A stretch of DNA of 64,000 nucleotides, taken from Tepidiforma sp. (GTDB lineage Bacteria > Chloroflexota > Dehalococcoidia > Tepidiformales > Tepidiformaceae). The translations under genes were made by a program, and so were the position numbers. This document shows positions 21,434 through 62,368 of this stretch, piece after piece. The stretch spans positions 569,444 through 633,443 of the forward strand of contig NZ_BPIG01000001.1 in NCBI RefSeq assembly GCF_026003995.1. Direction: 5' to 3'. The notes under the pieces are model-generated. The model did no database searches. It was not told the DNA's origin and saw only the letters and a program-made list of their open reading frames with translations. Every line of letters starts with the position of its first letter. Within the stretch, counting starts at the first letter, position 1.

Positions 21434-21509
21434 GCGCCCGTAGCTCAGGGGATAGAGTGTTGGGTTGCGGACCCAAAGGTCGGAGGTTCGAATCCTCCCG
21501 GGCGTACCA
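21434..21509 (+). tRNA. tRNA-Arg (GCG), prophage integration target
   Basis: 76 bases; acceptor GCGCCCG with CGGGCGT, anticodon stem TTGGG/CCCAA around TTGCGGA (anticodon GCG), encoded CCA. Its last 40 bases recur at 62,329-62,368, marking it as the attachment gene. The intact copy lies on the integrase side, so the tRNA stays functional after integration. Confidence 0.95.
21470..21509 (+). repeat. attL core, 40-bp direct repeat
   Basis: Identical over 40 bases to 62,329-62,368; the flanking bases differ on both sides. It spans the 3' side of the anticodon arm through the CCA of tRNA-Arg, the usual crossover region for tyrosine integrases. Confidence 0.93.
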
Positions 21510-21578
21510 CCACCACAGTTTTATGTGCACCTGCAGGTTCGTGGGCCCGGGCAATCCACACCGAGGTGTTCACAAAAC

Positions 21579-22577
21579 ATGGCCCCCAAGTCGTCATCTG
21601 TCGAACCTACGGTCGCACCCCCCCCGTGGGCGACCGGGTCCATCCGCGAGGCTCGCGATGAGTGGCTCGCCACCTACTACGCTGCCAGCCCCAAGACCGT
21701 CCGCAACTACCGCGCCATCACCGACCGCATGCTCGAAGCCCTCGAGGCCGACGGCATCGCCGACCTCGCCGACGTCTCCCCGCGCCACCTGACCCTCTTC
21801 CTCGCCGCAGAGTGGGAGCGCCCCCGGCGCACCACCCGCCACGACGGCGACCGCGCCGACCAGAACCGCATCTCCACCTCCATGGTCGTCGCCACCCACG
21901 CCGTCCTCAGCATCTTCTGGAAGTGGGTCCACCACCAGGGCTACACCGACGCCAACCCCATGGCATCCGTCCGCCGCCCGGCAACCCCCAAGCTCACCCG
22001 CACCGCGCTCTCAGCCGACGATGCCCACGCCATGGTCGCCAAGTGCCGCGAGAAGGACGACCCCATCGTCGCCGCCCGCGACGAGGCCATCGTCACCCTC
22101 TTCCTCGGCACCGGCCTGCGCGTCCGCGCCCTCCTCGGGCTCCGCCTCGGCGATATCGACTGGGCCAACCGCCGCCTCCTCATCCGGGACGACAAAGGGC
22201 AAGGCATCGTGCAGCGCCGCGTCCGCCTCAGCCCTAAGGCCTACCAGGCCCTCCGCCGCTGGGTCCGCATGCGCGAGAAGTACCGTGTCTCCTCCGATGC
22301 CCTGTGGATCTCCATCCGCCGCCGCCCCATGACCTACGACGCCATCTGGCGCGTCATCCGCTCCCTCGGCGAATACGCCGGCGTCGACGGCCCGGCCCAC
22401 CCGCACCGCCTTCGGCATACCGCCGCGACCGAGCTCTACCGCGAGACGAAGGACATCCTCATCGTCAAAGCCTTCCTCGGCCACAGCAAGGTCCAGACGA
22501 CCGAGCGCTACCTCCGCCGCCTCGGCCTCGAGCTCGAGGACGCCGACTACCGCACCCCGGACGAGTGGCTCGCCTGA
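21579..22577 (+). CDS. int: Tyrosine-type phage integrase
   Basis: Recombines attP with the tRNA-Arg attB site. 332 residues from ATG at 21579, 69 bases inside attL. Seen: an N-terminal SAM-like core-binding domain (about 20-125: ARDEWLATYYAASPKTVRNY) and a catalytic domain with the first Arg in FLGTGLRVRALLGL (about 181), the HxxR box HPHRLRHTAATEL (about 277-280), GHSKVQTTERYL with the next conserved His and the nucleophilic Tyr (about 310). An excisionase candidate is the small MerR-like gene at 53,895, though it is distant. Confidence 0.95.
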   Translation: MAPKSSSVEPTVAPPPWATGSIREARDEWLATYYAASPKTVRNYRAITDRMLEALEADGIADLADVSPRHLTLFLAAEWERPRRTTRHDGDRADQNRISTSMVVATHAVLSIFWKWVHHQGYTDANPMASVRRPATPKLTRTALSADDAHAMVAKCREKDDPIVAARDEAIVTLFLGTGLRVRALLGLRLGDIDWANRRLLIRDDKGQGIVQRRVRLSPKAYQALRRWVRMREKYRVSSDALWISIRRRPMTYDAIWRVIRSLGEYAGVDGPAHPHRLRHTAATELYRETKDILIVKAFLGHSKVQTTERYLRRLGLELEDADYRTPDEWLA

Positions 22578-34628: not shown

Positions 34629-35591
34629 CTACGCATTCGTCAGCGCGGTGAACTTCCCCTGGTGCCGGCAGTTCGAGCACGTCAGGTTCCCCGCGAACAG
34701 GATCTGCATCACCTTCGAGTCGCCGTTCGCCGGCACCTTGAACGGCGTCACCTTGAAGTCCCGCTCCGGGTTCACCACGAAGTTGATGAAGCTCGTGTTC
34801 AAGAAGTACATGTGGCCGTCCTGGCAGTAGTCGTCCCAGAACAGCTGCGCATCCCGGAACATCAGGCTCGGCTTCGCGTAGCCCACGTTCGCCTCGCCCG
34901 TGTTCGTGTACCGCATGTTCGAGTCCATGAGCGCCTCGTAGCTCTCGAACCCTTCCTGCGTCGTGATGATCAGGTTCGGCGTCTGCGTCATCTGCCCGTA
35001 CGAGCAGTCATTGAACATCCGCCGCATCCCGTTCGACCCCGCAGGCGTCAGCGCCACCGAGCTCCCGTTCTCCTGCGCCGCCCACCACGCGTTCGACGCC
35101 CGGGCAATGTTCCCGTACGTCCCCGCGTTGTCCACCATCAGCGCCAGCCCCGTCAGGTTCTTCCCGCCGTTGCCCGTTCCATCCAGGAACACGTGCTGCC
35201 CCAGCAGGTCCTGCATCGACAGCTCCGCCTGGTTGATCTTCGCCTGGAGCAGGTTCAGCATCTCCGCCTCGCCCGCGTTCTCCAGCTCCTCCTGGCCCGA
35301 AATCGTCACCGTCCAGTAGTAGTACTTCCACTGGAACTCCGCGTTCGTCAGCCCTTCCTGGGGCGAAACGTCGAACACGTCATACCCCGAGTAGCTCCCG
35401 CCGCTGGTGCTCTTCGCGTACATCAGCGGCTCCAGCAGCTTGATGCCCCCGCGGCGAGAAATCTTCGCCCGCTTGTTCAGGACATCCAGCACCGTCACCT
35501 TCTGGAAAATCGCATCCTTCGGCTTCCGCGACAGGTACAGCTCCACCGTCGCGGTCAGCACGTCCGTCGAATAGTTCGGGTTACCAGGCAC
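34629..35591 (-). CDS. Major capsid protein
   Basis: 320 residues, probable HK97-fold shell subunit. It opens PGNPNYSTDVLTATVELYLS then RKPKDAIFQKVTVLDVLNKR, a pattern seen in podovirus/siphovirus coat proteins. Seen: TISGQEELENAGEAEMLNLL in the expected spine-helix region and YGQMTQTPNLIITTQEGFES. The C-terminus carries an unusual CSNCRHQGKF that might bind a metal. Order scaffold - capsid - small beta protein supports the call. GTG at 35591 starts 26 bases past the scaffold stop. Confidence 0.88.
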   Translation of the reverse strand: MPGNPNYSTDVLTATVELYLSRKPKDAIFQKVTVLDVLNKRAKISRRGGIKLLEPLMYAKSTSGGSYSGYDVFDVSPQEGLTNAEFQWKYYYWTVTISGQEELENAGEAEMLNLLQAKINQAELSMQDLLGQHVFLDGTGNGGKNLTGLALMVDNAGTYGNIARASNAWWAAQENGSSVALTPAGSNGMRRMFNDCSYGQMTQTPNLIITTQEGFESYEALMDSNMRYTNTGEANVGYAKPSLMFRDAQLFWDDYCQDGHMYFLNTSFINFVVNPERDFKVTPFKVPANGDSKVMQILFAGNLTCSNCRHQGKFTALTNA

Positions 35592-35617: not shown

Positions 35618-36604
35618 TCAGCTCTTCAGCAGCTCCTTCGCCGCCTCGAACGCCTCGGCCATCGTCAACGGACCAGCCTTCACGTCCTTGCCCGAACCCG
35701 GCAGCCCTGCCATCACCGCAACCGACGGCGCCGACATCCCCCGCAGCCGTTGCAGCTGCAGCTCGTACGCCTTCCGCTCCGCCGCCTTCACCTTCTCCAC
35801 TTCCTTCGCCGCCAGCTCCTTCGCCCGCGCCTCCGCAAGCGCCGAGATCACCTTCGCGCCGAACACCGCAAGGTTCATCGAATCCGGGTGCTCCCCGAAC
35901 TTGAACTCCCGCTTCAGCGCCGCCACCGCGTCCGCCGGGAGCCCCCCGTCTTCCGCGATGGCATCGATCATCAGCTCGAACCCCTGCCCATACTGCCGGG
36001 CCAGCTCCCCGCGGAGCCGCTCCTCGCTCGGCCCCAGCCCGCCCTCAGGGTTCTCCAGCGTCACATCCGGGTGCGCATCTTCATAGCTCTTCATGAAGAT
36101 GGCCAGCTCCGGCCGCTGGCTCACCAGGCGCGCATACTGCGCAGGGTCGTTCTCACGGATCGCCAGGTGCGTCAGGTAGAAGTCGCGAAACTGCTCCTCC
36201 TCCTGCCGCTGCTGCTCGTACTCCCGGATGGCCGATTGCTTCAGCTCCTGCTCGAGCTTCCGCACCAGCCCCTGCGCCTCGGGCGGCAGCTCATGCAGCC
36301 TCCCATCCCGGCGCAGCTGGAGAATCTTCTGCAGGGCGCCACGCTCGTCGTAGCGCTTCCGTGACCCTGGTCCTTCCTCGCTCGGCTCGGCCGAAGGTTC
36401 CGCATCGTCGCTGCTCCCGGTGCCACTCGCTGGCACGGCCTCCGCAGCCGGGGATTCCTCCACCATCGCCTTCGCCGCCGCAAACGCCTCCGCCATGCTG
36501 AGCGGCTGTTCCCCCGGAGCGCCGTCCGGCGGCCGCTCCGCCGGGGCCGCCTCCGCAGCCGGTTCACTCATGACACTATCAGCATTCGCAACGTCGTCGG
36601 TCAC
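35618..36604 (-). CDS. Capsid scaffolding protein
   Basis: 328 residues from GTG at 36604 (ATG at 36571 is an alternative). Acidic, Ala/Pro-rich N-terminus, a long charged helical centre (LVRKLEQELKQSAIREYEQQ) and a helical C-terminal part, directly ahead of the major capsid gene: the composition and place of scaffold proteins. The motif PLSMAEAFAAAKAMVEE (34-50) recurs as PLTMAEAFEAAKELLKS at the C-terminus (312-328), so both ends may bind the same capsid site. A promoter lies just upstream. Confidence 0.8.
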   Translation of the reverse strand: MTDDVANADSVMSEPAAEAAPAERPPDGAPGEQPLSMAEAFAAAKAMVEESPAAEAVPASGTGSSDDAEPSAEPSEEGPGSRKRYDERGALQKILQLRRDGRLHELPPEAQGLVRKLEQELKQSAIREYEQQRQEEEQFRDFYLTHLAIRENDPAQYARLVSQRPELAIFMKSYEDAHPDVTLENPEGGLGPSEERLRGELARQYGQGFELMIDAIAEDGGLPADAVAALKREFKFGEHPDSMNLAVFGAKVISALAEARAKELAAKEVEKVKAAERKAYELQLQRLRGMSAPSVAVMAGLPGSGKDVKAGPLTMAEAFEAAKELLKS

Positions 36605-36647: not shown

Positions 36648-39600
36648 CTAGCCAATCGCCGCCGCGTTCGTGTAGAACCGCCCGAACTCCGGGTGCTCCA
36701 GCCGGAACCGCCGCCGCGCCGGGTTCGCCCCCCGCCGCAGCGCCCGCCGCGCCAGCACCACCCCCTCCGGGTCCGACGCCGTCATCATCGCCAGCGCCCG
36801 GTTCGTGTCCCGCGCCTGCCCCGCGCGCACCAGCCCCTGCGCCACCTGCAGCACCTCCGACGCCCGCTGCGCATCCTCCAGCGACATCCCCCGGTACGCC
36901 GGGATCTGGTAGTACTCCTTCGCCAGCTTCTGCGCCTCCCGGAACTCCCGCAGCGTCTGGTCGTCCTGCACCCCGATCACCCGGTCCACCTTCTCATCGA
37001 TCCCCGGGTGCTTCTCCCGGTACGCCGCCTGCAGCGCGTCCAGCCGGTCGAAGTTCAGCTGCCCGTTCGCCATCGTCGCCTCGTCGTACAGCCGGAACCA
37101 GCCATCCACCTCCGCATCGCCGCCGCTCCGGTCCTTCAGCAGGTCCCGCTGCCCGGCCAGGTACGTCTGCAGCTCATGGTACGCATCCCGGTAGTCGTTC
37201 CCCGTGAACGGCTTCCCCGCATCATCTTTCCCTTCCGCCAGGTACCGCGCGCTCGCTGCCATCCGCTCCTTGAACGTCTGACGAATCCGCACCAGCGCCG
37301 CCGCGTCCCCTCCCCGCCGCACATCCTGCGCATCCTTCGCCGCCTGCGCCTTCGCCACCCGCTCGTCCTCGTTCACCAGCGACTTCTCCGCCCCCCGCAG
37401 TTCGTCGTACCGCTTGCCGAACCGCTCCAGCGCCACATCGTCCCGCGTCTGCGTCAACCGCTCCGTCACCGTCAGCAGGCTCGCCGAAACACCCGTCGAG
37501 CTCACCACCGCCGCGCCCGGCCCCTCCTCGATGAGGCTCTGCACCCCAAACGGCAGGCTGCTCTTCGCCTGCTCCACCGCAATCTTCCCCAGCCCCTTCA
37601 CGCTCCCCGGGTCCAGCGGCTCCCCGAGGTACGTCTCCCGCTTCACGAACGGCTCGTACACAATCTTCGCCGCCGGGCTCAGCTTCGATTCCATGAACCG
37701 CACCGGCCGCGTCATGTCCGGCGCTATCCCCTGCCCCGGCTTCCCCGCGAGCGTCCCCGCAATGCCCCGGTAGAGCGTGTCGTACGTCCCCAGCAGCGAG
37801 ACATCCATGCCTGCCACATTCCGCAGTCGCAGCCAGTTCCCGCTCCGCGGGTCCCAGTCCGTCTCATACCCGTGCGCCGTGTTCCACAGCCACGCCACCG
37901 TCCCCGCCATCACCAGCTGACGCGCCAGGTGCTGCCGCGCAATGCTCCCCTCGATGCCGCCGCGCGTCAGCCCCGCGTAGAGCTGCTCCGCGCTCGAAGA
38001 AAAGTACCGCGGCGCGAACATCACCACCTGCTCCATCGTGGTCACCTTCCGGCCAGACCACCCCGTCGCCCGGTTGATTGCATTCCACGCCTGCCGCATG
38101 TGGTCGTCCAGCGCCTCCCCCGTCAACCCCCGCGCTACCGCCCGCTGGTACTCCTGGTTCCCTAGCTCGAACCGCACCAGGTTCAAAAACCGCGCGAAGT
38201 GCTCGTTCGACTTCCGCGCCACCGTGCCCACCACCGGAATCTCGTCCAGCTTCCCCCCCGTCAGCCGCTTCGCCACCTTCGGCATCAGGTACTCGTCCGC
38301 CGAATGCGGGTCCACGTACCGCGCCCCCCACCGGATGTGCTGGTTGAGCCCCGGCCCCTTGCCCTCCAGCCGGTCGATCGCCCGGAAGTAGTACTCCGGG
38401 TTCTTCAGGCTCATCACCGTCGCCGTCCAGTAGTCCGCCGCCGCCTTCGGATTCTTGATCCACATGATCATGCCCTGCTGCAGCGTCGCCGAGAGGTCGC
38501 CCGTCGCCCGCAGCGGCGTCAGCACCGCGTTCAGCGCCTTCGGAATCTTCGTAAAAATGTTGTCCGCCGCCGGCTTCAGCGCATCCCGGATCCGGTCCGC
38601 ATCCCCCTGCCGGAACAGCAGCCCCCGCACCGCCGGGTGGTCCACGTAGTCATACCCGAACCCCGCCCGGATGCCGCCCTTCGCATTCGGCTTCACCGCC
38701 AGCGGCTCCAGCACCTCCCGCAGGTACGCGTCCTGCGCATGCCGCAGCTTCCCGCGCATCCCCGCTTCCAGCGCGTCGAACGGGTTCGTGTACTCCACAT
38801 CCCGGCCCAGCCCCTCCTCCAGGCTCTCCATCGTCCGGGACTTCCGGAAGTCCGACGCGCCCGACGTCCGCTCCTGCCCATCGATCCCAATCACCTTCCG
38901 CGGGAAGTACGTCCCCTCGATATCCGGGTCCCACGGCACCTTCCCGCCGTGCGCAAGGATCGTCTTGTTGACCGCCTCGTTCCCCCACTCGATGAACTCC
39001 AGCGCCTGCCGCTGCTCCGCCGTCAGGCTGTCCCAGTACGCCTTCCCCGCCGGCGTCGACCGCTCGATCACATCCTCGATCGTCGGCATCAGCGGGTCGC
39101 CATCGATTCGCCACGACCCGTCGCCCGCCCGCTCCACCGTAATCCCGGCCCGCTTCAGCCGCGTCTCCGCCTCCTCCCGGAACCACGACACCCAGTGCTG
39201 AATCAGGTTGTCCACCCGGTTCTTCTCACCCACCACGAACGGCCGCACCAGCGTGTCCAGCACGATGTTCCGGTCGTAGTGCTCCGCGCCCAGCTTCGCC
39301 AGCACCCGCCGCAGCATCTGGTTCAGCCGTCCTCGCAGCGACTGCAGGTACTCCTGCTGCGCCCGCACCTGCGCATCCCGCGACTTCGCATTGAACAGGT
39401 CGAAGCGCTCATCCTGCCCAAAGTGCCGGAACCGTGGCCCGCCAGGGTTCCCGTCGCCCCCGGCCGAACCCCCACCACCACCGGCACCCGCCCCACCCTT
39501 CGGCGGCGTCGTCCCGTAGGCGTAGTACCAGTCCTCCGTCGACGGCCCGTGCGGCCCGCCGCCCGGCGGCGGGTTCTCCTCCGCCTTCCGCCAACTCCGC

Positions 39601-42600
39601 GCCTGCTCGTCCGCCTTCGCCTGCTCCCGCTTCGCCCATTCCGGCCCGGCGCCCTGCTGTCCCTCGGCCCGCGCACCGCGGCCCGCACCGGCATCCTTCC
39701 GCGCATGGTATTGCCCGCGCCCCGCCGCCAGCCGCTCGAACGCCGCGTTGATGTCCTTCATGTCCTGCATCGCCGTCGGCGACGAGTTGATGTCAGGGTG
39801 ATACCGCCGCGCCTGCCGCCGGTACGCCCGCTTCAGCTCCTCCTTCGTATACGCCTTCCCCGGCTCCAACCCCAGCATCGCCCAGTCGCTCGAGCGGTCC
39901 AGCGGCGGCGGCGGGCCCTCGTCCGCCTTCGGCGTCTCGAACTCCGCCTCATCCGCCCGTGCCTCGTCCCGGCTGAACGGCTCGTCCGTCCGGTTCTGCC
40001 GCTGCCGCGGCGTCTCCTCCTTCGCCGTCCCCTCGTCGGCCCTCCCCGCGTCCCCAGCCCGCCCATCGGCCTCCACACGCGCTTCCGCCACCGCGCGCTC
40101 GGCGCCCGGTGCAGCGGCCCGCGTCGCTTCCTCCACCCGCGGCGCTTCCGCTTTCGGCCCCTCGCCAGCAGCTTCATCTACCCGAGGTGCCGCCTCCCCA
40201 GGGCGGGCAGCCGGCGCCTCGCCCCGGGCCTCCGCCCGCCGCAGCTTCTCCTCTGCATCCAACCGCCCCAGCAGGTCGCCCTGCGTCTCCCGAATGCCGG
40301 CCGTCTCCCCCTCGGTTCTGAACGTGTCGCGCACATTCCCGAAAAGGTCCGCCTCCTTCACCGTCTCCTCGACGCGCGGCGCGGGCGCCTCCTTCGGCGC
40401 CTCCGGGCGCGGCCGGTAATCGCTTACCGCCCGCGGGTCGTTCTCCACCAGGTCCAGCGCCGCCTTCTTCGCCTCTGCCAGCGAAGCATGGGTGCTCACC
40501 GTCTCCCACACTTCCGCCCCGGTGCCCTGGTCCGTCCCCGTCCGCAGCCGCACACGCCACTCCGGGCTCTCCGGCCACCGCTCCAGCTTGACCTGGATGA
40601 ACACCTTCCCACCGTCGACCTTCGACCGCAGCGTGATGAACCGCGTCTTCCGGTACGTCCCCTGCGCGCTGAACTCCACATCCGCGCGGCCGATGGGACG
40701 CGGTCCAGCGTCCTGCGGACGAACCCCAGGCTCCCCCACCGGCCCCGGCTCCTCCGGCGTCGGCGGCTGTTGCTCAACCGGCCGCCCCTGCTGCGGCTCG
40801 GCCTCCGCCCGGCTCGGCGCTACCTCGTCCCCGAAGAGTCCCTGCTGTCCGGGGAGCGGTCCCGCTCCTCCGTCTCGTCCGTCAGGCCCAGCTGCGCCTT
40901 CAACTCCTCGATCCGCGCCTTCAGCCGGTCGTCCGGTATCGCCCGCAAACCGGGCTTTCGCACGCGCTTCGTATTCTCCGGTGATGGCTGCAATCTCATC
41001 CTCCAGCCGCGCCACTCGCTCCTCGAGCAGGTCGCTCAGCTCCCGCGCCCGCGGGTCATCGCCGAACGCCTTCCCCATCGAATTGCGCAGCGTCACCAGT
41101 GTACGCCGCTGGCTCTCCAGCTCCGTGCGCTTCGCCTCCAGCCGGTCCACCACATCCAGCACATCCGATTGCACCGACCGCCACGAATCATCCCCAAGCA
41201 GGTCACCAAACCCCGCCTGCGATGCCTTCGCACGCTCCTCCTGCAGCATCCGCCCGGCCTGCGTCAGCCGCTCCCGCAACCGCGTCCGCGAAATCTCACT
41301 CTGGTCGCCGAACACGTACCGCCCAAACATCGCCCGGACGTCCGTCTCCGTCAGCCCGTACACCTTCGCCGCCCGCGCCACCTCCGCCGCATTCCCCGTC
41401 GCCGCCCGCGTCTCCACCACCCGGTCCACCAGGTCCTGCGGCATGCGCGACAGGTGCACCAGGTCCTCCGCCTCCTGCTGGCTCACCCGCATCGCCTTCG
41501 CGATCGCCGGCACATCCTCCCCGTCGTCCAGCAGCACCCGCACCGCCCGCAGGTCCTCCCGGAGGTTCGTCCCCGACGTCGAATAGTTCGAAAGCATCGC
41601 CATCCGGCGCAGCTCCTGCACGTGCGCCGGGTTCGAAAGGTCCGCGTCCACCACCTGCCACGTGCCCGTCTCACCGACCTTCCCCTGCTCCGCAAGCCGC
41701 TTCATCGCCTCCAGCCGGTGATGCCCCCGCACCACCACCGTCTGCCCCGTCGCGGCGTCACGCACCACCAGCCCCGGCTCCAGCCGCATCGGGTCGAAGT
41801 TCTCCACGATCTCCCCGACCTTCCGCTCGCTGTACGTCTTCCCCGGGTCCGCATCCCGCCCCTGGAACAGGTCCGGGCGCTCCGTGATGTCCGCGTGCCG
41901 CAGCGTCTCGAAGCCCTCCCGCATCGTCGGCCGGCCGCCGCTCACGTCCTCCACCCCGAGCCCAAAGCCCTGCTTCGCCCCCGGGATGCCCTCCAGCCCC
42001 CGCGTCGCCACCCGCCGGTGGATGGCCCCGCCAGCGACACCGCCCGCTACCCCGGCGATGATCGCCCGCGCCTCCGGGCTCAGCCGGTTCCACAACGGCA
42101 CCTGGTCCCCGTACTCCGCCTGCGCCTCGCTCGCCGCGTTCGCCCCCAGCACCACCCCGCCGCCGCCCGAATCCAGCACCTCGTACAGCACCCGCCCCGC
42201 CTTGGTCCCCTGCAGCCCAACCGCTCCCACCACCCGCGCCGCCGCCCGCGGCCCCACCAGGCTCAGCGGGTCGCTGCCCACGTTCAGCGCCGCCCGCGAC
42301 AGCCACGTCTGCTCCGGGTTCGCCGCCCGCTCCTTGAACGCCTCCCGCCCCTCCTTGAACTGCCCCACCGGGTCCTGCAGCGCCGCGCCCCACGCCCGGA
42401 ACATCTCCCCGAACCCCGGCTTCTCCCGGTAGTACTGCCCCGTCGGCTTCCCCTCCGCATCCAGCACCGGCTTCCGCTCCGCCTCCGTCTGCCCCGAAGC
42501 GATCGCGAACAGCGGGCTCCCCACGTACTCCCGCGGCGCATCCAGCACCTTCAGCGCCGTCCCCACCGCCTTCCCCGCCACATCCCCCACCGGGTCCAGC

Positions 42601-42908
42601 ACATCCCCCGCAAGGTCCCCCAGCTTGCCCAGCAGCCCCTTGCCGCCCTTCTTCTCCTCCGCGGCCGCCGGAGCACCACCGGGCGACGCCCCGGGAACAC
42701 CCTGCGCACCACCCAGCAGCGCCTCGATGCGCCCCTGCCCAAGGTACCGCGGCGCACGCTCCCGCGGGGCCCCCTCCGCCTCCGGCGAACCAAACCGCTC
42801 CCACGAGCGCTCGCTCCGGAAGATATCCGCCTCCTCCCGGAACCGCTCCAGCCGCCGCTTCAGCACCGCATCGCGGGGCGCGTACCGCCACGGCTTGTAC
42901 TCAGCCAA
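36648..42908 (-). CDS. Giant polyvalent virion protein with ParB-like and DnaJ domains
   Basis: About 2,086 residues. Start is uncertain: TTG at 42908 overlaps the upstream stop by eight bases. Order: N-terminal helical part with a Gly-rich membrane-like stretch (ARAIIAGVAGGVAGGAI, ~residue 290); a ParB/Srx-like domain with VVVRGHHRLEAMKRL (~394-400) followed by an HTH-like helix region (VPAIAKAMRVSQQEAEDLV); a long charged linker; a small beta domain (RFITLRSKVDGGKVFIQVKL); a J-domain with DWAMLGLEPGKAYTKEELKR and the HPD motif (H1037) in RRYHPDINSSP; a Gly-rich linker; then ~900 residues resembling large ejected/internal virion proteins. Position between portal and scaffold suggests packaging in the head and delivery with the DNA. 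J-domains stimulate Hsp70, so recruiting DnaK is the natural hypothesis. Confidence 0.85.
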   Translation of the reverse strand: MAEYKPWRYAPRDAVLKRRLERFREEADIFRSERSWERFGSPEAEGAPRERAPRYLGQGRIEALLGGAQGVPGASPGGAPAAAEEKKGGKGLLGKLGDLAGDVLDPVGDVAGKAVGTALKVLDAPREYVGSPLFAIASGQTEAERKPVLDAEGKPTGQYYREKPGFGEMFRAWGAALQDPVGQFKEGREAFKERAANPEQTWLSRAALNVGSDPLSLVGPRAAARVVGAVGLQGTKAGRVLYEVLDSGGGGVVLGANAASEAQAEYGDQVPLWNRLSPEARAIIAGVAGGVAGGAIHRRVATRGLEGIPGAKQGFGLGVEDVSGGRPTMREGFETLRHADITERPDLFQGRDADPGKTYSERKVGEIVENFDPMRLEPGLVVRDAATGQTVVVRGHHRLEAMKRLAEQGKVGETGTWQVVDADLSNPAHVQELRRMAMLSNYSTSGTNLREDLRAVRVLLDDGEDVPAIAKAMRVSQQEAEDLVHLSRMPQDLVDRVVETRAATGNAAEVARAAKVYGLTETDVRAMFGRYVFGDQSEISRTRLRERLTQAGRMLQEERAKASQAGFGDLLGDDSWRSVQSDVLDVVDRLEAKRTELESQRRTLVTLRNSMGKAFGDDPRARELSDLLEERVARLEDEIAAITGEYEARAKARFAGDTGRPAEGADRGVEGAAGPDGRDGGAGPLPGQQGLFGDEVAPSRAEAEPQQGRPVEQQPPTPEEPGPVGEPGVRPQDAGPRPIGRADVEFSAQGTYRKTRFITLRSKVDGGKVFIQVKLERWPESPEWRVRLRTGTDQGTGAEVWETVSTHASLAEAKKAALDLVENDPRAVSDYRPRPEAPKEAPAPRVEETVKEADLFGNVRDTFRTEGETAGIRETQGDLLGRLDAEEKLRRAEARGEAPAARPGEAAPRVDEAAGEGPKAEAPRVEEATRAAAPGAERAVAEARVEADGRAGDAGRADEGTAKEETPRQRQNRTDEPFSRDEARADEAEFETPKADEGPPPPLDRSSDWAMLGLEPGKAYTKEELKRAYRRQARRYHPDINSSPTAMQDMKDINAAFERLAAGRGQYHARKDAGAGRGARAEGQQGAGPEWAKREQAKADEQARSWRKAEENPPPGGGPHGPSTEDWYYAYGTTPPKGGAGAGGGGGSAGGDGNPGGPRFRHFGQDERFDLFNAKSRDAQVRAQQEYLQSLRGRLNQMLRRVLAKLGAEHYDRNIVLDTLVRPFVVGEKNRVDNLIQHWVSWFREEAETRLKRAGITVERAGDGSWRIDGDPLMPTIEDVIERSTPAGKAYWDSLTAEQRQALEFIEWGNEAVNKTILAHGGKVPWDPDIEGTYFPRKVIGIDGQERTSGASDFRKSRTMESLEEGLGRDVEYTNPFDALEAGMRGKLRHAQDAYLREVLEPLAVKPNAKGGIRAGFGYDYVDHPAVRGLLFRQGDADRIRDALKPAADNIFTKIPKALNAVLTPLRATGDLSATLQQGMIMWIKNPKAAADYWTATVMSLKNPEYYFRAIDRLEGKGPGLNQHIRWGARYVDPHSADEYLMPKVAKRLTGGKLDEIPVVGTVARKSNEHFARFLNLVRFELGNQEYQRAVARGLTGEALDDHMRQAWNAINRATGWSGRKVTTMEQVVMFAPRYFSSSAEQLYAGLTRGGIEGSIARQHLARQLVMAGTVAWLWNTAHGYETDWDPRSGNWLRLRNVAGMDVSLLGTYDTLYRGIAGTLAGKPGQGIAPDMTRPVRFMESKLSPAAKIVYEPFVKRETYLGEPLDPGSVKGLGKIAVEQAKSSLPFGVQSLIEEGPGAAVVSSTGVSASLLTVTERLTQTRDDVALERFGKRYDELRGAEKSLVNEDERVAKAQAAKDAQDVRRGGDAAALVRIRQTFKERMAASARYLAEGKDDAGKPFTGNDYRDAYHELQTYLAGQRDLLKDRSGGDAEVDGWFRLYDEATMANGQLNFDRLDALQAAYREKHPGIDEKVDRVIGVQDDQTLREFREAQKLAKEYYQIPAYRGMSLEDAQRASEVLQVAQGLVRAGQARDTNRALAMMTASDPEGVVLARRALRRGANPARRRFRLEHPEFGRFYTNAAAIG

Positions 42909-44406
42909 AGCTCGCCGCCCCCGTCGCGAACCCCTTCGGCCGGCTCTTCTCCATCTCCTTGATAAAGTCCGGCTCATACCGGCCGAGCGACGAAATCTCG
43001 CCCAGCTTCATCTGCTGCTGGCTCGGCAGCAGCCGCGAGAACTGCCGGTAGTCCACCTTCTGCCCCGTCGGCTCGCTCACCGTCACCCCCAGCGCATTCG
43101 TCGTCGGCCCCGTGTAATTCCCGAACGACGCCACCCGGCCCCCGCCGCTCATCGTCGTCCGCAGCGAGTTCGAAATCCCCTGGAGATTCTCCTGCGACGC
43201 CTGCGCCGCCGACGATTCCAGCGGGTTCATCCCCAGCAGTTGCCGCGCCAGCGCCCCGTAGTCCGTCACCCCTGCCAGCTGCTGCGCCCCAATCGTCGGC
43301 TGCGCCGGCTTCATCTCCCCCTGCCCCGCGCTGTACTTCTCCTGCCACATCGTCGCCGCCCCCGGCGGAAGCTGCATCCCCCCAACCCCCGGCCCGCCCT
43401 GCGGCTGCCACGAATTCACCATCTCCTGCGTCAGCGGCTGCATCGAGCCGCCGCTTTGCCCAGAGATCAGCGCCTGGTACTGCTCCACCGCCGTCTGGTA
43501 CACCGCCATCGAGCTCCCGCCCGATTGCGCCACCTCCTGCGGGTCAATCTGGTCCTCCGGCACCAACTGCGCCGCCATCGTCAGCGTCAGCCCGTTCACC
43601 ACCACGTCCCGGTTCTGCAGCCACGCCGCATACTTCAGCCAGTTCCGCGGCTCCGCCGCCAGCTCCGCATCGTACTTCGCAATCTCCAGCGCCAGCCCCA
43701 CCATCGCCTCGTGGTGCCGGTTCCGCTCCTCGATCGCCCGCTGCGCCCGGTCCTTATCCCGCGCCCCGAGCTCCAGCAGCAGGCGGTCCATCGCCCCCTT
43801 CTCCTGCAGCTCCGCGATGTACTTCTGCACCCCCCAGTCGCCCTCCGCGATGTAGCGCCGCGTCGCATCCTCCATCGCCGCAATCGACAGGTCCGCCGCA
43901 ATCCGCTCACGAACGCTCTGCAGCTGCGTGTTCGCCTGCAGCTGCGCAATCGCCATCTGCGCATCCCGGTCCTTCTGGTTCTCCGACGCCTGGAACTCCG
44001 ACCGCTCCTTCCACGTCCCCTCCACCGACGACCGCGAATTCGGGTCGTCCACGTACGTCGCCCGCCGCTCCGGCGGCGTCCCGAAGTTCTCCAGGATCCA
44101 CGGGTCGCTCGCCCCGAACTTCTTCACGTAGTTCTCGAAGTACTGGACCGTCTGGTAGCTCAGCGGCTTGTCCGGCGTCCCGAAATCCTCCTCCGCCGGC
44201 TTCCCGATCGACGCATCCCCATACCCCGGCATCCCCCCGAGCCCCTGCTTATACCGGCTGATGAGCGCCCGGATGACCCGCTCCTCCCACTCATCCCGGC
44301 TCCCAGAGTAGTCATAGGTCACCTTCCCCGCCGCGGTCGCCCCGCCCACCGAGGTCGGAATGCCCGACCCCGCGACCGTCGTCCCCGAGCTCGGCTGCTG
44401 GCTCAT
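42901..44406 (-). CDS. Large helical virion protein, candidate ejection protein
   Basis: 501 residues from ATG at 44406 (ATGA overlap). Rich in long helices (FQASENQKDRDAQMAIAQLQ, IAADLSIAAMEDATRRYIAE) with a Gln/Gly-rich second half. No membrane span. It lies between the M23-like and giant proteins, all three coupled by overlaps, and is a likely internal virion protein by size, helicity and place. No family recognised. Confidence 0.65.
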   Translation of the reverse strand: MSQQPSSGTTVAGSGIPTSVGGATAAGKVTYDYSGSRDEWEERVIRALISRYKQGLGGMPGYGDASIGKPAEEDFGTPDKPLSYQTVQYFENYVKKFGASDPWILENFGTPPERRATYVDDPNSRSSVEGTWKERSEFQASENQKDRDAQMAIAQLQANTQLQSVRERIAADLSIAAMEDATRRYIAEGDWGVQKYIAELQEKGAMDRLLLELGARDKDRAQRAIEERNRHHEAMVGLALEIAKYDAELAAEPRNWLKYAAWLQNRDVVVNGLTLTMAAQLVPEDQIDPQEVAQSGGSSMAVYQTAVEQYQALISGQSGGSMQPLTQEMVNSWQPQGGPGVGGMQLPPGAATMWQEKYSAGQGEMKPAQPTIGAQQLAGVTDYGALARQLLGMNPLESSAAQASQENLQGISNSLRTTMSGGGRVASFGNYTGPTTNALGVTVSEPTGQKVDYRQFSRLLPSQQQMKLGEISSLGRYEPDFIKEMEKSRPKGFATGAASFG

Positions 44407-46241
44407 CGTCGCACCCCCTTCCCCGGTGCCTGCTGGCCCGGCAGCGGCGCGTGCGCCGGCACCCCCGTCAGCCCGCGCCAATCCTTCCAGTAGTCCTTCT
44501 CAATCCCCGGCCCCAGCACCGGCGTGTACGGCGGATTCACCGCATCCATCCCCGCCGCCGCCCGCAGGATCGACTCCCGCACCTTCTCCAGCAGCTGCGG
44601 GTCCTGCGCCCGCGCCATCTGCGCCGCCGGGTCATTCGCGCCCGCCTGCCCCTTCGCCGGCTGCGCCATCGCCCCCCGCACCTGCGCAAAATAAAACGCC
44701 TCCCGCGGGTCGATCCCCGCCGGGAGCACCGCCGTCCCCGGCGGCAGATTCATCACCGTCGGCCCCCCCTGCAGCTGCTGCAGCTGGCCGTCCGGCATCA
44801 CCACCATCTCCGGCCCCTTCTCATTCACCAGCGCCGGCCCGCCCGGGTGGCTCATCGTCCCCTCCGCATGCCGCGGAATCCCGTTCCACCACTTCTGCGG
44901 GTTCGTCGCCAGGTTCCACCACTTCTTCGCCTGCTTCTTCGTCCCCTGGTACGCGTCCCCCCCCTTGTCCATCAACTGCTTCCCCGACCACCCAAGCACC
45001 TTCCCGATGCCGTACTGCAGGTTCTCATCCCACTGCCGGTTCCCCGGCACCTTCTTCCCCTCCGCGCCCGACAGGATGTTGTAGATCACCTTCCCGAACG
45101 GCACCGTCCCCCACGCCCCCGGGTACTCCTCCGGCTGCTTCACCGGGAAGTCGCCTGCCAGCTTCAAATTCGACACCGCGTTGTCCCGCGCGTTCGGCCC
45201 GCCCGTCACCAGCGGTTCCGTCGGCGCCGTCGCCTGCGTACCCGGCAGCGTCACCCCCGTCCCGACCGACGCCGGCGGCTCATCCCCCACCCCGAACTTC
45301 TCCTGCCACTTCTTCAGCAGGTCCTGGTACCCCGTCTCGATGTATCCCGCATCCGTCGGCCGCGGCAGCAGCCCCGGCGTCTGCGACGTGTTGATCGCCT
45401 CCTGCATCGCGGCCAGGTTCGCATTGTGCTGTGCCCGCTGCGTCGCCTCACCCGTCGCCGCCGCATCCGCCAGCTGCTGCTTGTTCAGCCACCGGTTGAA
45501 CTGCCGCTCCGCCAGCACCGATTCCAGGTCCTGCAGCTTCAGCGCATTCTCGAACGCCCGCTGCGCCGCACTCGTCCCGTCCGACGAACTCCCAAACACC
45601 TCCTCGAAGTCCATCAGGTCGCTGATCGCCGTGATGTACGTCTTGTAGTCCGCGTCCGAACCCGTCTCCGCGTACGCCTCCCACGCCGACAGCGCCCGCT
45701 GCCGCAACCCCTCCCGGATCTTCGAGACCGAATCGTTGTCCAGGTTGCTCAGCCACTCCGTCGTCCCGCCGCCACCACCGCTCCCGCCCGTCCGCGGCTG
45801 CCAGCTCGTCCCCGTCCGGTTATCGATCGCCACATTGATCCCCAGCAGGTCGCTCGGGTCCAGCGGCGTCCCGTTCTTGTCGTACACATCGAAGCTCAGG
45901 TGCGGCCCCGTCGACTTCCCCGTGTTCCCCACCTTCCCGATGAACGTCCCCGGCGTCACCTTCTGCCCAATCTGGAGCGACGACGACTGGTCCTGCAGAT
46001 GCCCGTACGACACGATCCGGCCGTCATCGAGCATCACCTTCACCGAATACCCCCAGCCATCCCCCGCATCGCCGACCCAGATCACCGTCCCCGGCGCCAC
46101 ATTTTGAACCGGCGTCCCCTCCTTCGCCGCGAAGTCCACCCCGCGGTTGAAGTGCGCATACCCGAACGCCGCGCCGTCCAGCTTCTCGTCCGTCGGGCCG
46201 TAGTACTGCGTAATCGTCGCCCCGCCTACCGGAAGTCCCAT
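44403..46241 (-). CDS. Virion protein with degenerate M23/LytM domain
   Basis: 612 residues from ATG at 46241 behind GGGAGGAT. Residues ~1-125 are an M23-type fold (GYAHFNRGVDFAAKEGTPV, VSYGHLQDQSS, GNTGKSTGPHLSFDVY), but the zinc His is Asn32 in N-x3-D36, and the HxH is H114-L-S116. Both zinc histidines are thus missing although D36 remains, so peptidase activity is doubtful. The centre is helical (~160-330). The C-terminus has EGTMSHPGGPALVNEKGPEM, a motif frequent near the end of phage tape-measure-like proteins. Probably delivered through or built into the tail/injection machinery; inference. Confidence 0.8.
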   Translation of the reverse strand: MGLPVGGATITQYYGPTDEKLDGAAFGYAHFNRGVDFAAKEGTPVQNVAPGTVIWVGDAGDGWGYSVKVMLDDGRIVSYGHLQDQSSSLQIGQKVTPGTFIGKVGNTGKSTGPHLSFDVYDKNGTPLDPSDLLGINVAIDNRTGTSWQPRTGGSGGGGGTTEWLSNLDNDSVSKIREGLRQRALSAWEAYAETGSDADYKTYITAISDLMDFEEVFGSSSDGTSAAQRAFENALKLQDLESVLAERQFNRWLNKQQLADAAATGEATQRAQHNANLAAMQEAINTSQTPGLLPRPTDAGYIETGYQDLLKKWQEKFGVGDEPPASVGTGVTLPGTQATAPTEPLVTGGPNARDNAVSNLKLAGDFPVKQPEEYPGAWGTVPFGKVIYNILSGAEGKKVPGNRQWDENLQYGIGKVLGWSGKQLMDKGGDAYQGTKKQAKKWWNLATNPQKWWNGIPRHAEGTMSHPGGPALVNEKGPEMVVMPDGQLQQLQGGPTVMNLPPGTAVLPAGIDPREAFYFAQVRGAMAQPAKGQAGANDPAAQMARAQDPQLLEKVRESILRAAAGMDAVNPPYTPVLGPGIEKDYWKDWRGLTGVPAHAPLPGQQAPGKGVRR

Positions 46242-46541: not shown

Positions 46542-46963
46542 CCCTTCAACCTCCGCATCCGCCGCTCGAACTCAGGGTTCTGCGGCGTGATCGCCGGGTC
46601 CGGCAGCATCGCCTGGTCCCGCCGCAGCAGCTTCGCCCGCTCCCGCAGGCTCTCCTTCGCCGCCCCCGGCGCAAACTGCTTCCGCAGCCGGTACAGGTCC
46701 TCCAGCGCCTCCGGGTCCTCCCACGTCCACGGCGAGAACGTCAGCGCCGCCGCCTCCAGGATCATCCAGCTCTCCCGGTCCGTCAGCGGCTCCTCATCCA
46801 TCGGCTCCGCCGGCGCGATGATGTCCGCGAGCCGCCGCGCCCGCTCCCACAGCAAATCGCTCGCCAGCTTCGCCCGCTGGCGCAGCGGGTCGTACGTCGT
46901 CCGCTCCGCCCGGCGGTCCATCCGTACCCGCTTCCCCGTCGAGGCAAACCCCATCCGCGCCAT
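46538..46963 (-). CDS. Small protein after the portal gene
   Basis: 141 residues; ATG at 46963 shares one base with the portal stop. Basic start (KRVRMDRRAERTTYDPLRQR) and helical, acidic middle (PMDEEPLTDRESWMILEAAA), ending EFERRMRRLKG. No family recognised. The place immediately downstream of the portal is often taken by head-assembly or adaptor genes. Confidence 0.7.
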   Translation of the reverse strand: MARMGFASTGKRVRMDRRAERTTYDPLRQRAKLASDLLWERARRLADIIAPAEPMDEEPLTDRESWMILEAAALTFSPWTWEDPEALEDLYRLRKQFAPGAAKESLRERAKLLRRDQAMLPDPAITPQNPEFERRMRRLKG

Positions 46964-48999
46964 CAGACCAGCGCCCCCCGGTCCTGCTTCACCCCGCCCG
47001 GCATCCCCGGGATCCCGAACGCCGTCAGCGGCGGCGCCCCCTGCGTCGGCCCGCCCTGCTGCGGCTGCGGCACCGGCGGATTCTGCGCCATCGGCTCACC
47101 CATCGGCCCCGCATTCTGCGGCTCCATCCCCGGCGCACCCGGCTGCCCCTGCTCATCCACCCCCAGCAGCCTCGCCCGCGCCTTCGCCATCTCCTGCATC
47201 AGCGGGCTCGACTTCTGCTCCTCCGTCGCCTGGTACCGCTGCGCCGCCATCGCCATCGCCAGGATCAGCACCTGCTGGTCCGCCGCCGGCGAATTCAGCA
47301 GCCGCTCGATGTCAATCTCATCCGCCTCCCGCGCCGGGTCCTCCACCCCCGTCTCCTCCATCACCCGCCGACGGCTCCACACCCCGGCCTGCAGCTTCTC
47401 CAGCGCCAGCTTCTCCCGGCCCGCCTGGTCCTGCGGAATCCCATCCGGGATCACCACCTCGATCGGATTCTCCGTCACATGCTCCGGCCCGATGTGCACC
47501 ACCGGGCGGTACTGCACCCCGTCCTCCGTCTCCTCGATCGCCCCCGGCAAAAAGATGCCCCCCGGAAACTCCTTCCGGATGATGTGCCGCAGCATGTAGA
47601 ACGCCTTCCGCCACTGGCGCGCCGCGTTCGTGTAGATCGTGCTCAGGATGCTCATCTGCATCGCCCGGATCTGCGCCACCGCATACCCCGCCATCTCCGA
47701 CCCAATCGCCCGGCCGAAATTCGACAGCGTCGACTGCTCCAGCTGGTTCATCAGGAAGTCGAGGTTCTTGAAAAAGTCCGGCATCATCTGCGCGTTCAAG
47801 TACGGGAACTCGATCTCCTCGTTCGGCCCCAGCAGGTTCATCTCCCCCAGCTGCACCTTCCGCACGATCGGCTCCCCCGTCACCGGGTGCACCAGCCCAT
47901 GCGCCGGGTTCTTCAAGAACGGCGTCGGGAACCCGTGCTGCATCGCATTCGCCGTCAGGATCGCCGCGTGCAGCACCAGCTGCCGCGCCACCGCCAGCCC
48001 CGCATCCGCCACCCCTGCCGATTGCCATCCCGGGTCACGGTCGCTCGTCTGCTCCCCAAACGCCGGGATCAGCGGCACAAACCCCCAGTTGTGCTCCCAC
48101 CGCTCCACCTCCACCCCGTCCAGGAACACCACCATCGTCCAGCAGTCCAGGTAGACCACCTTCTTCACCGTCGCCGAAGCCCACTGCGGGCCTCCTCCCA
48201 GCCCCGGCCCCGAATCCCGGTCCACCGACGCATCCGCCTGCCGCTCCGCCGCCAGCACGTACGGCTCCGACAGCGTCCGCCGCTCCCAGCCTTCCACCTT
48301 CCCCTCACCGTTCCGCCGCGCCCGGTACCCCAGCCCCAGCGCCACCTCGTACTCCGTGTGCTCCGTCTCGATCACCGCACACGACAGCCGCTCATGGTCC
48401 GAAAACAGCGGGTACACCGTCTGCGGGTCAAAATCCCGGAAACAAATCGGCACCCCGCCCCGCAGCATCAGCCCCCGGTACCGGCGCTCATACTCCTCCG
48501 CGTCCTCCTCCTCGCCCCGCTCGAAGCCCCCATCCCGCCAGCGCGACGAATCCGGCCAAATCCCCAGCCAGCTCTCCCCCCACGCCGCCTGCGCATCCAC
48601 CAGCATCGCGTACGTCGGCCGGTCCTGCTGGTCCTCGATCGCCTTCCGCAGCGCGTGCAGCGCACTCTCCTCCACCGCCGCCGCCCGCACCTCCGGCTGC
48701 CGGTAACTCACCGGGATCACCTGGACCCGCGGCTCCTCCTTCGCAATCAGCCCCGTCACCCGCTGGATCATGTCCCGCACCATCGGCAGGTCCGGGTCCA
48801 GCAGCACCTTCCGGTAGCTCGCAGGGATCCGCCGCACTACATCGTCCCACTGCCCCCGCCGCGCCTTCTTCACCGACCACACCCGGTCGATCACCGGCTG
48901 CCGCAGCCGCTTCAAATGCCGCAACAGCTCCGCCACCTCACCCCACGTCGGCGGCGCGTACCCCTCAGGCTTCGGAACTTCTTGAACTGGATCGGCCAT
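46963..48999 (-). CDS. Portal protein
   Basis: 678 residues from ATG at 48999; TTG at 49038 just after the terminase stop is a less likely start. Seen: DMIQRVTGLIAKEEPRVQVI and an extended alpha/beta body, then FFKNLDFLMNQLEQSTLSNF and AMQMSILSTIYTNAARQWRK, helical stretches typical of portal stem/wing regions, followed by a Gln/Pro/Gly-rich C-terminus. Size and order (terminase, portal, head proteins) match podovirus-type portals. It would form the dodecameric gateway for DNA packaging and ejection. Confidence 0.87.
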   Translation of the reverse strand: MADPVQEVPKPEGYAPPTWGEVAELLRHLKRLRQPVIDRVWSVKKARRGQWDDVVRRIPASYRKVLLDPDLPMVRDMIQRVTGLIAKEEPRVQVIPVSYRQPEVRAAAVEESALHALRKAIEDQQDRPTYAMLVDAQAAWGESWLGIWPDSSRWRDGGFERGEEEDAEEYERRYRGLMLRGGVPICFRDFDPQTVYPLFSDHERLSCAVIETEHTEYEVALGLGYRARRNGEGKVEGWERRTLSEPYVLAAERQADASVDRDSGPGLGGGPQWASATVKKVVYLDCWTMVVFLDGVEVERWEHNWGFVPLIPAFGEQTSDRDPGWQSAGVADAGLAVARQLVLHAAILTANAMQHGFPTPFLKNPAHGLVHPVTGEPIVRKVQLGEMNLLGPNEEIEFPYLNAQMMPDFFKNLDFLMNQLEQSTLSNFGRAIGSEMAGYAVAQIRAMQMSILSTIYTNAARQWRKAFYMLRHIIRKEFPGGIFLPGAIEETEDGVQYRPVVHIGPEHVTENPIEVVIPDGIPQDQAGREKLALEKLQAGVWSRRRVMEETGVEDPAREADEIDIERLLNSPAADQQVLILAMAMAAQRYQATEEQKSSPLMQEMAKARARLLGVDEQGQPGAPGMEPQNAGPMGEPMAQNPPVPQPQQGGPTQGAPPLTAFGIPGMPGGVKQDRGALV

Positions 49000-49038: not shown

Positions 49039-50595
49039 CTACCGGGCCAGCTCCATCACCCACGGAACCGCTTCGAACCCCAGCAGCCGCGTCCGGTCCC
49101 CGAACGCCCCATACCGCCAGTACAACCCGTAGTTCAGCGCCTTGATCGCATCGTTGTCGATGTCCAGCGGCACATCCCGCACCACCGCACCCTCCCGCGT
49201 CCGCTTCGCCCGGTGCAGATTGTACTCCCCCCGGTACCGCTGCCCATCCACCAGCCCACCGAACAGCGGCCCCGCCGCCGCAGGGTCGAAGTACAGCCGC
49301 GGCCCCAGCTCGTTCGTCACCCGCCGCAGCCGCCCATCACGGTTGAACACCCGCTGCGCATCCACCTCCTCCCACGCATTCAACAAACACCGCTGGTGCA
49401 CGTCATACCCCGCCGCCAACGGCACCGGCTCCGCATGAATGAACAACGGCCGCCCCGTCAGCGCACGCCACCCCTTCGCCCACTGCTCCACATTCGGCGG
49501 CCCCTCACTCCGCTGCTGCCGCCCCGCAAAGTCCATCACCATCTCACTCACATTCCCCGCCCACTCCCGCGCCGCACACTCCTCCATCACCTGCTCCGTC
49601 GTCCGCCCCCACCGGTACACCGCATCCACCACCCACGTGTCCACCGCTCGCCCACCTCCCGCGTCCACAAACTGCACCGCCAACACCGCGTACGCATGCG
49701 TCGTCCCAGGGTCACAAAACAACGTCACCGGCAAATCCGGGTCATAGCTCCGCTTCAAATTCGGGAACCGGTGCCGCACATGCACCCGCTCGTCCGCATA
49801 CTTCATCACCCGGTCCGACCGCTTCTGCGGCTCCCCCCCAAACTTCTCCAAAAACACGTCCGGCGGAAACTCCCGCTCCGCCGCCACAATCGCCGGGTCA
49901 TCCCGCCCACCAGGAAACAACACCAGGTTCGACCACGTCGGCAACGCAAACGTCTCCCCCTCCCCAGTCCCCTTCGCCCACTCCTCCGCCATCTGGTAAA
50001 ACCACGCCCCTGCCTCCTCGAACGTCCCCTCAATCAACACCCACCCACGCGTCTGCAACACCCGCCCCTTCGCATTCAAGTACACCGCCTCCCCCAGCTG
50101 CGCCGCCTCCGCTAACACCATCCCCCGATACGGCCGCGACGCAATCTTCGTCGCATCCGCCGCCGTCAACGTCACAACCTCCGTCCCCTTGTGCGGAAAC
50201 CGAATCCGCCAACTCTGATTCACCGGCGTGTGAAACTCATGCGGTATCCCCATCGCCTCCAACATCCCATGCAAATGCCGCATCTCCTCCTCCGCCATCC
50301 GATACGAATCACCCACCACCCCGTACAAATCCGTGTACACCTTCCGCACCACCTCCCTCCACCCCATGTCCACGTACAACGCCAGCGCCGCAATGAACGA
50401 CTTCCCCGCTCGCCACCCACCTCGCACCTGCTTGTACCGCGCCCGCGACTTCAACACCGCCTCCTGGCTCCCATGCAGCCGCACACCTCGCTCCCACAAC
50501 CGCTCACCAGTCTCCGGATGCACCGGCGCAGGCAACCGCCCACACGCCGCCTCCACAAACCCCCACTCCGGCCAATCCTTCAACTCCTCCACCAT
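49039..50595 (-). CDS. terL: Terminase large subunit
   Basis: DNA-packaging motor, 518 residues from ATG at 50595. N-terminal ATPase: Walker A-like YKQVRGGWRAGKSFIAALAL (~60), Walker B region YRGMVLAEAAQLGEAVYL, and a coupling-type LIEGTFEEAGAWF. C-terminal RNase H-like nuclease: TLFCDPGTTHAYAVLAVQFV with the first Asp, MVMDFAGRQQ and DIDNDAIKALNYGLYW with later acidic residues. Directly upstream of the portal gene. A 226-base GC-rich gap separates it from the small subunit. Confidence 0.9.
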   Translation of the reverse strand: MVEELKDWPEWGFVEAACGRLPAPVHPETGERLWERGVRLHGSQEAVLKSRARYKQVRGGWRAGKSFIAALALYVDMGWREVVRKVYTDLYGVVGDSYRMAEEEMRHLHGMLEAMGIPHEFHTPVNQSWRIRFPHKGTEVVTLTAADATKIASRPYRGMVLAEAAQLGEAVYLNAKGRVLQTRGWVLIEGTFEEAGAWFYQMAEEWAKGTGEGETFALPTWSNLVLFPGGRDDPAIVAAEREFPPDVFLEKFGGEPQKRSDRVMKYADERVHVRHRFPNLKRSYDPDLPVTLFCDPGTTHAYAVLAVQFVDAGGGRAVDTWVVDAVYRWGRTTEQVMEECAAREWAGNVSEMVMDFAGRQQRSEGPPNVEQWAKGWRALTGRPLFIHAEPVPLAAGYDVHQRCLLNAWEEVDAQRVFNRDGRLRRVTNELGPRLYFDPAAAGPLFGGLVDGQRYRGEYNLHRAKRTREGAVVRDVPLDIDNDAIKALNYGLYWRYGAFGDRTRLLGFEAVPWVMELAR

Positions 50596-50821
50596 CACCA
50601 AGCCCCCGCACGGACTTGATTTTCGGGAGACCACCCCGGCACGCGCACACGCGCCGCCCGCGGGGGCTCGCCCCCCCGGGGGGGCGTGGGGGTGCGCCCG
50701 CCGCCCGCACGGCCGCCGCGCTCGCCGCCCGCCACGCCGCCGAAGCCGAGGCCGCCCCCCGCGCCGCCGCACGCGGCCCCCGTCCGCAGTCCAGCGCCCC
50801 GGGGAGTATCGAACCTAGAAC
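50596..50821. other. GC-rich gap between terminase genes, with 18-bp palindrome
   Basis: No supported gene. It holds CGCCCCCCCGGGGGGGCG (50669-50686), a perfect 18-bp palindrome, in a very C/G-rich stretch. A packaging (cos/pac) site or transcription barrier is possible; neither is shown. Confidence 0.4.
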
Positions 50822-53908: not shown

Positions 53909-54110
53909 CGAACCCCTGTACTCCGCAACCGCCGCGGCTGAGCTCCTCGGGCTCAGCCGCCAGCGGTTTGAGCGCATCGCCCGCACCCTCGGCCTCGGCC
54001 GCCCCATCCAGCCGCGCGGCCGCATCTACTCCATGGCCGACATTGAGGCCGTCCGCACCCGTCCACGCGGCCGCCCGGGCCGGCCTCGCCGACAGCCTCC
54101 GCCCCCGTAG
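53895..54110 (+). CDS. MerR-like helix-turn-helix protein, excisionase candidate
   Basis: 71 residues from ATG at 53895, overlapping the upstream gene by 14 bases. Seen: YSATAAAELLGLSRQRFERI, an excisionase/MerR-type HTH, followed by PIQPRGRIYSMADIEAVR as the wing and a basic Arg/Pro tail. DNA-binding is clear; a role in excision or regulation is a guess from type. The last ten bases lie in the downstream tRNA. Confidence 0.75.
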   Translation: MTPADEPLYSATAAAELLGLSRQRFERIARTLGLGRPIQPRGRIYSMADIEAVRTRPRGRPGRPRRQPPPP

Positions 54111-54176
54111 CTCAGCGGACAGAGCAGGCGCGTCCTAAGCGCACGGCCGCAGGTTCGAACCCTGCCGGGGGCTCCA
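54101..54176 (+). tRNA. Prophage-borne tRNA-Arg (CCU)
   Basis: 76 bases: acceptor GCCCCCG with CGGGGGC, D-arm GCTCAGCGGACAGAGC, anticodon loop GTCCTAA (anticodon CCU, reads AGG), T-arm GCAGG/CCTGC and an encoded CCA. The first anticodon-stem pair is a G-A mismatch; otherwise standard. It may supply a tRNA for rare AGG codons, or be a former attachment site. Confidence 0.88.
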
Positions 54177-62328: not shown

Positions 62329-62368
62329 GACCCAAAGGTCGGAGGTTCGAATCCTCCCGGGCGTACCA
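62329..62368 (+). repeat. attR core, 40-bp direct repeat of tRNA-Arg
   Basis: Exact copy of 21,470-21,509, not a functional tRNA because the 5' half is absent. Marks the right end of the prophage. Confidence 0.93.

Follow-up and report, generated by a model that had tools for sequence, protein, structure and literature searches.

A giant protein of a Tepidiforma prophage joins a ParB-like module and an in-line J-domain

We analysed a stretch of 64,000 nucleotides from Tepidiforma sp. (assembly GCF_026003995.1, contig NZ_BPIG01000001.1, positions 569,444 to 633,443), here called the window. It holds a prophage, and between the portal-like and scaffold-like genes of this prophage lies a giant gene. 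Its product carries a ParB/KorB-like module, a genuine J-domain and a large C-terminal core that is common to giant proteins of other phages. We read the J-domain as a new cargo of a polyvalent phage protein. The gene and its parts are listed below, with residues counted from the ATG at 42977 and lengths in amino acids (aa).

36648..42977, minus strand: giant gene, 2109 aa from the ATG at 42977; likelier start at the TTG at 42908, giving 2086 aa
41373..41870, minus strand: ParB/KorB-like module, residues 370-535, with a GHHR motif (RGHHRLEAM) followed by a helix-turn-helix-like part
39729..39878, minus strand: J-domain, residues 1034-1083, with HPD at 1060-1062 (H1060-P1061-D1062)
39432..39707, minus strand: Gly/Pro/Ala-rich linker after the J-domain, residues 1091-1182, 26% Gly and no Phe, with a 16-residue indel between sister genes
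36648..38537, minus strand: conserved C-terminal core, residues 1481-2109 (about 630), mostly helical and common to other phages

The first-pass annotation of the window had described a 2,086-residue protein between portal and scaffold, naming no strand. The length, the coordinates and the portal-like and scaffold-like flanks all hold, and the gene is an uninterrupted open reading frame (ORF) on the minus strand. The TTG at 42908 is the more plausible start. It overlaps the upstream stop by 8 nt, the ATG at 42977 overlaps the upstream gene by 77 nt, and a codon-based gene caller also chose the TTG. The third-position G+C content of the gene, 0.90, is that of the adjacent phage genes, and the plus-strand frame at the same coordinates is an Arg/Pro-rich antisense sequence that contains a stop. 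The frame is independently backed by a 98%-identical gene in a sister phage, which differs by 91 synonymous and 48 nonsynonymous changes and by whole-codon indels only. These whole-codon indels rule out a wrong frame or a frameshift artefact. An assembly chimera is likewise ruled out, since an independent circular contig has the identical architecture.

The J-domain, predicted beforehand from its HPD motif, was recovered by four sequence tests and by structural comparison. Pfam DnaJ (PF00226) matched the giant protein significantly, with 38.2 bits against a cut-off of 27.8 (E-value 1.6e-9), and a genome-level search gave the J-domain 44 bits. An independent hidden Markov model (HMM) made from 14 other viral J-domains scored 56 bits (E-value 8e-16). 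With phmmer, the matches among PDB chains were almost exclusively J-domains, the best being that of Thermus DnaJ2 (5.7e-9). We then looked at a structural model of the J-domain fragment, built with other viral J-domains as its alignment and thus not independent of the sequence evidence. It has the expected three helices (at 22-25, 36-49 and 60-77), and HPD falls at 51-53, in the loop between helices II and III, where the predicted local distance difference test (pLDDT) is 82-88. The top Foldseek matches of this model were all J-domains (probability 1.00, best E-value 1.7e-3). The E-values rule out a chance match, for the J-domain as for the ParB-like module, and an ordinary standalone phage DnaJ is ruled out as well, the J-domain sitting midway in one ORF.

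Compared with E. coli DnaJ, the domain keeps Y25, R27, H33, P34, D35 and N37, and R22 and K26 are conservatively replaced by Lys and Arg. We take Y25, R27, H33, P34, D35, R22, K26 and also R36 to face DnaK. The giant protein has no zinc finger, no C-terminal client-binding domain and no match to further DnaJ-type Pfam families. Class A and B cochaperones have a G/F region and further DnaJ domains; the linker after this J-domain has Gly but no Phe. Because it lacks a zinc finger and a client-binding domain, the protein, as a cochaperone, would belong to class C. Among DnaJ-type proteins from the host family, identity to its J-domain reaches 48%, a level compatible with capture from a host.

The ParB/Srx-like motif named in the first-pass annotation, RGHHRLEAM, has the GxxR active-site pattern of that superfamily and proved to belong to a larger module. 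Residues 370-535, which span both the GHHR part and the helix-turn-helix-like part, match PHROG 1033, "ParB-like partition protein", with an E-value of 7e-11. In agreement with this, Noc, a member of the ParB family, aligns collinearly with the module, though weakly (E-value 0.8). Profiles in Pfam are less favourable than this PHROG match: no ParB-type model reached its own cut-off on the giant protein. The best family for the excised region was ddrB-ParB (PF18763), at 14.3 bits against a cut-off of 27.6. Since this score is only about half of what is required, we do not claim that the module is of the DdrB type.

Residues 691-1027 and 1091-1182, on either side of the J-domain, are linkers rich in Pro, Ala, Glu and Gly. 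The C-terminal core was modelled as mainly helical, with a mean pLDDT of 62 that rises in the C-terminal two thirds. We found no usable match of the core model to a solved structure in PDB. Against predicted viral giant proteins, the best match has an E-value of 3.8e-16, and several of the matched proteins are named "Large polyvalent protein associated domain-containing protein". None of the Pfam LPD models matches the core, despite these fold matches to proteins so named. What had been described as a large ejection-type region after the J-domain stands as a large C-terminal region common to giant phage proteins, the polyvalent-associated ones included.

To define the family, we searched viral contigs with a six-sequence alignment of the core. 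This gave 48 loci, 40 of them distinct and 22 with complete ORFs of 1087-2796 aa. At all 12 loci inspected, among them a few near-duplicates, the giant gene is followed by a gene of 249-325 aa and then by one of 282-316 aa, of scaffold and head type. The latter encodes the major head protein in all three loci tested, in a PHROG different from that of the head protein in the window. One upstream neighbour of a family giant has a transglycosylase domain, comparable to the M23 peptidase in the window. When 25 family members were run against Pfam, only two kinds of cargo emerged, the DnaJ domain of the window protein and, in a 2198-aa relative (L058:5606-12199), a C5 cytosine methylase. The methylase occupies residues 368-695, the position of the ParB-like module in the window protein. 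The closest dehalococcoidial relative is 28% identical in the core and has neither a ParB-like module nor a J-domain. The genome of the window falls into one family with the Dehalococcoidia metagenome-assembled genome FeB_14, in keeping with a host from the Dehalococcoidia (Chloroflexota). Among 393 genomes of this class, the core matched in 7, and the partial loci available for the five weaker matches showed no J-domain.

An in-line J-domain in a virion protein had been called unusual, and for this giant family the searches agree. None of the 40 distinct relatives carries one, which rules out the J-domain as a common feature of the family. We also scanned viral contigs for J-domains with a four-sequence alignment, an 11-sequence alignment being too divergent. 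Of the 26 J-bearing contigs found, none has the domain in a giant, every J-domain ORF being 93-544 aa long. Scans of the viral contigs with the whole protein and with the ParB region gave no matches. Against about 50,700 phage records the giant family has no protein-level match; two weak matches of the whole protein proved to lie in short separate frames, not in giants.

The rest of the locus is that of a complete temperate phage. Its attachment (att) sites and annotated genes are as follows.

21473..21511, plus strand: att core, 39 bp, at the 3' end of tRNA-Arg(GCG)
62329..62367, plus strand: second att copy, a direct repeat of the 39-bp core
21465-22577: integrase gene of the prophage
34629..35591, minus strand: major head protein, Mx8-like (PHROG 9953, E-value 2.5e-59; 33.6% to the Mx8 head protein, E-value 1.6e-49)
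35618..36571, minus strand: scaffold-like gene, 317 aa, named by its position before the head protein; no family match
42901..44406, minus strand: 501-aa gene directly upstream of the giant gene; no function assigned by family matches
44403..46241, minus strand: M23 peptidase gene, 612 aa (Pfam, 7.3e-23; PHROG endolysin and tape-measure families)
46963..48936, minus strand: portal-like gene, 657 aa, named by position and weak similarity to its counterpart in a relative; no PHROG match
49039..50772, minus strand: terminase large subunit (PHROG 2, E-value 1.3e-18)

The genome of the sister phage, JAOACB010000020.1 (L022; 41,588 bp), is circular, bears a terminal repeat of 77 bp and is filed in a Fimbriimonadales metagenome-assembled genome. 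It aligns to about 21.47-62.37 kb of the window, joining both ends, and carries one copy of the 39-bp att. Because this junction occurs twice in the window and once in the circular sister, whose alignment joins both ends, the window holds a complete prophage of about 40.9 kb, at about 21.47-62.37 kb, integrated in tRNA-Arg(GCG). Allowing up to 3 mismatches, we found no further att site in the Fimbriimonadales genome, so its label is doubtful as the host of the sister phage and may be a binning error. Within the prophage, the giant gene has the portal-like and M23 peptidase genes upstream and the scaffold-like and major head genes downstream. The counterpart of the portal-like gene (L049:2471-4522), itself without a functional name, is 23% identical over 514 aa (E-value 3.5e-11). 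The M23 peptidase gene product is a candidate virion peptidoglycan hydrolase.

Gene order and head protein resemble those of Myxococcus phage Mx8. The two phages have homologous head proteins and the same order of terminase, portal, small gene, scaffold-like gene and head protein. Relative to Mx8, the stretch from the portal region to the scaffold-like gene has three extra genes in the prophage, encoding the M23 peptidase, the 501-aa protein and the giant. The prophage also contains a gene for tRNA-Arg(CCT), at 54101-54176 on the plus strand, between the replication and packaging regions. On the minus strand at 29667-31484 there is a 605-aa ORF, missed by a simple gene caller, which matches PHROG 19311, a phage family with no assigned function (E-value 5e-19).

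The sister phage encodes an extra 173-aa protein in its early region, with a C-terminal J-domain (L033:9769-10290; G449:C47; Pfam, 31.5 bits). The window prophage has no separate small J-protein, and unrelated ORFs take its place at about 57.1-58.2 kb. Since the sister has this J-protein besides its giant, the lineage, judging from its predicted proteins, employs J-domains in two forms.

Polyvalent proteins, as surveyed by Iyer et al. 2017 (PMC5512222), are large multidomain phage proteins that adjoin virion genes and are predicted to be injected, with ParB-like and methylase domains among their cargo. The first-pass annotation had also pointed to ParB-like parts in such proteins. DnaJ, J domain, HSP70 and DnaK are all absent from the text of this survey. 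The giant resembles the P1 DdrB/DarB type in its great length, its several domains and the location of its gene among virion genes, and its family includes ParB-like and methylase cargo. It joins several unrelated domains in one chain, its gene sits among late virion genes as do those of its relatives, and by its predicted structure the core resembles proteins named for the large polyvalent protein associated domain. It differs in that the ParB-like module scores below the ddrB-ParB cut-off and the core lacks a Pfam LPD match.

Other phage proteins are similar in part. Rki of phage RB43 binds host DnaK and aids phage growth without being a generic cochaperone (PMC3486835). Both Rki and the giant are phage-encoded, have a J-domain with HPD and are expected to bind host DnaK, whereas Rki is a separate, early-expressed protein and the J-domain in the window is in-line in a giant late-region protein. 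The DNA polymerase of HMO-2011-type phages also has a DnaJ piece fused to a phage protein (PMC9038755, PMC6918029). That piece, however, is the zinc-binding central region with its CXXCXGXG motifs, while the giant has the J-domain itself. In literature searches of incomplete coverage, we found no J-domain in ejection or internal virion proteins and no earlier description of one in a polyvalent protein.

Two further systems offer parallels in function. T7 gp14-16 and P22 gp7/16/20 are internal ejection proteins that leave the virion ahead of the DNA or with it. The giant would be expected to resemble them by analogy of function; we found no sequence or fold match between them. In mitochondria, Pam18/Tim14 of the import motor places a J-domain at the channel exit and recruits Hsp70 to pull the chain in. 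The giant may work in a like manner, with kinship limited to the J-domain.

Putting these data together, we tentatively favour, at a little short of an even chance, the reading of the giant as a polyvalent protein of a temperate Mx8-like phage, a minor capsid or ejection protein whose J-domain recruits host DnaK. Its packaging, its ejection, its binding of DnaK and the client of this DnaK are what we infer. The conserved helical core would be the assembly or delivery part common to giants encoded between portal and scaffold or head genes. The N-terminal half would be exchangeable cargo: a ParB/KorB-like module that may bind DNA or nucleotides, and a J-domain behind a long disordered linker. 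Packaged with the DNA, the protein would enter the new cell early. There the J-domain would capture DnaK-ATP and stimulate its ATPase, and DnaK would act on the neighbouring polypeptide, helping the giant chain itself to be imported and refolded, and also on anything that the ParB module collects on the incoming DNA. Our preference for a role at entry over one in assembly is modest; it comes from the other cargo of the family and the published polyvalent proteins, whose expected place of action is the cell just infected. The stronger proposal, that the J-domain makes host DnaK a motor for import and refolding where the DNA enters, with the ParB module tying its action to the incoming DNA, we regard as improbable.

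Several points weigh against the giant as a DnaK-recruiting ejection protein. We infer its location in the virion from gene order. The J-domain has Ile in place of R36 and lacks helix IV. The core model is only moderately confident, and no solved ejection protein matched it. Within the giant family, the J-domain is confined to two close sequences, those of the window and the sister; as about 40 relatives of equal length manage without one, the import of giant proteins in general cannot require a J-domain. Comparison of the sister genes is of limited help. Across the 283 codons of the ParB-like module and the J-domain there are 3 synonymous changes and none that alters an amino acid; across the 557 codons of the two linker stretches there are 21 amino-acid and 18 synonymous changes, plus whole-codon indels of 5 and 16 residues. 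Amino-acid changes thus differ between domains and linkers (Fisher p 2e-4), but the domains are poor in synonymous changes too, so this conservation is supportive but weak as a sign of constraint.

The J-domain might instead act in the producing cell, where DnaK would keep the nascent giant both soluble and unfolded for loading into the procapsid alongside the scaffold; once ejected, the domain would have no further function. The gene adjoins scaffold-like and head genes, the chain combines great length with disordered linkers, and HSP70 recruitment for folding and assembly has been proposed for the J-proteins of jumbo phages (PMC7824862). However, about 40 relatives of similar length assemble without a J-domain, a fact that weakens refolding at entry as well. 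We consider this role in assembly unlikely, if still worth weighing. Less probable in our view is that the giant merely delivers the J-domain, which would divert DnaK as Rki does, altering the heat-shock response or a DnaK/DnaJ-dependent defence. The precedent of Rki itself points this way, as do the second J-protein of the sister phage, by which the lineage uses J-domains more than once, and the frequent prediction that polyvalent cargo targets the host or its defences (PMC5512222). Against it, the sequence indicates no target, and a few copies per virion would face an abundant chaperone. Least probable of all, we doubt that the giant is an intracellular late protein absent from the virion, with the J-domain as a recently captured, functionally neutral insert. 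The presence of the domain in two close sequences only and the free variation of the adjacent linkers would fit such an insert. Yet the domain sequence stayed unchanged while the linkers changed, HPD and helix II are intact, and synteny with head genes is conserved across the family.

The giants described here form a family that recurs among uncultured phages and whose N-terminal cargo is exchangeable. If our reading is right, chaperone recruitment joins the known cargo types of polyvalent proteins. A J-domain in a giant protein of the ejected type would provide a handle, mutable at a single point in HPD, on whether host DnaK helps such giants to unfold, pass the narrow portal and refold. Should the import motor prove true, it would be the phage equivalent of a translocation motor driven by a J-protein.

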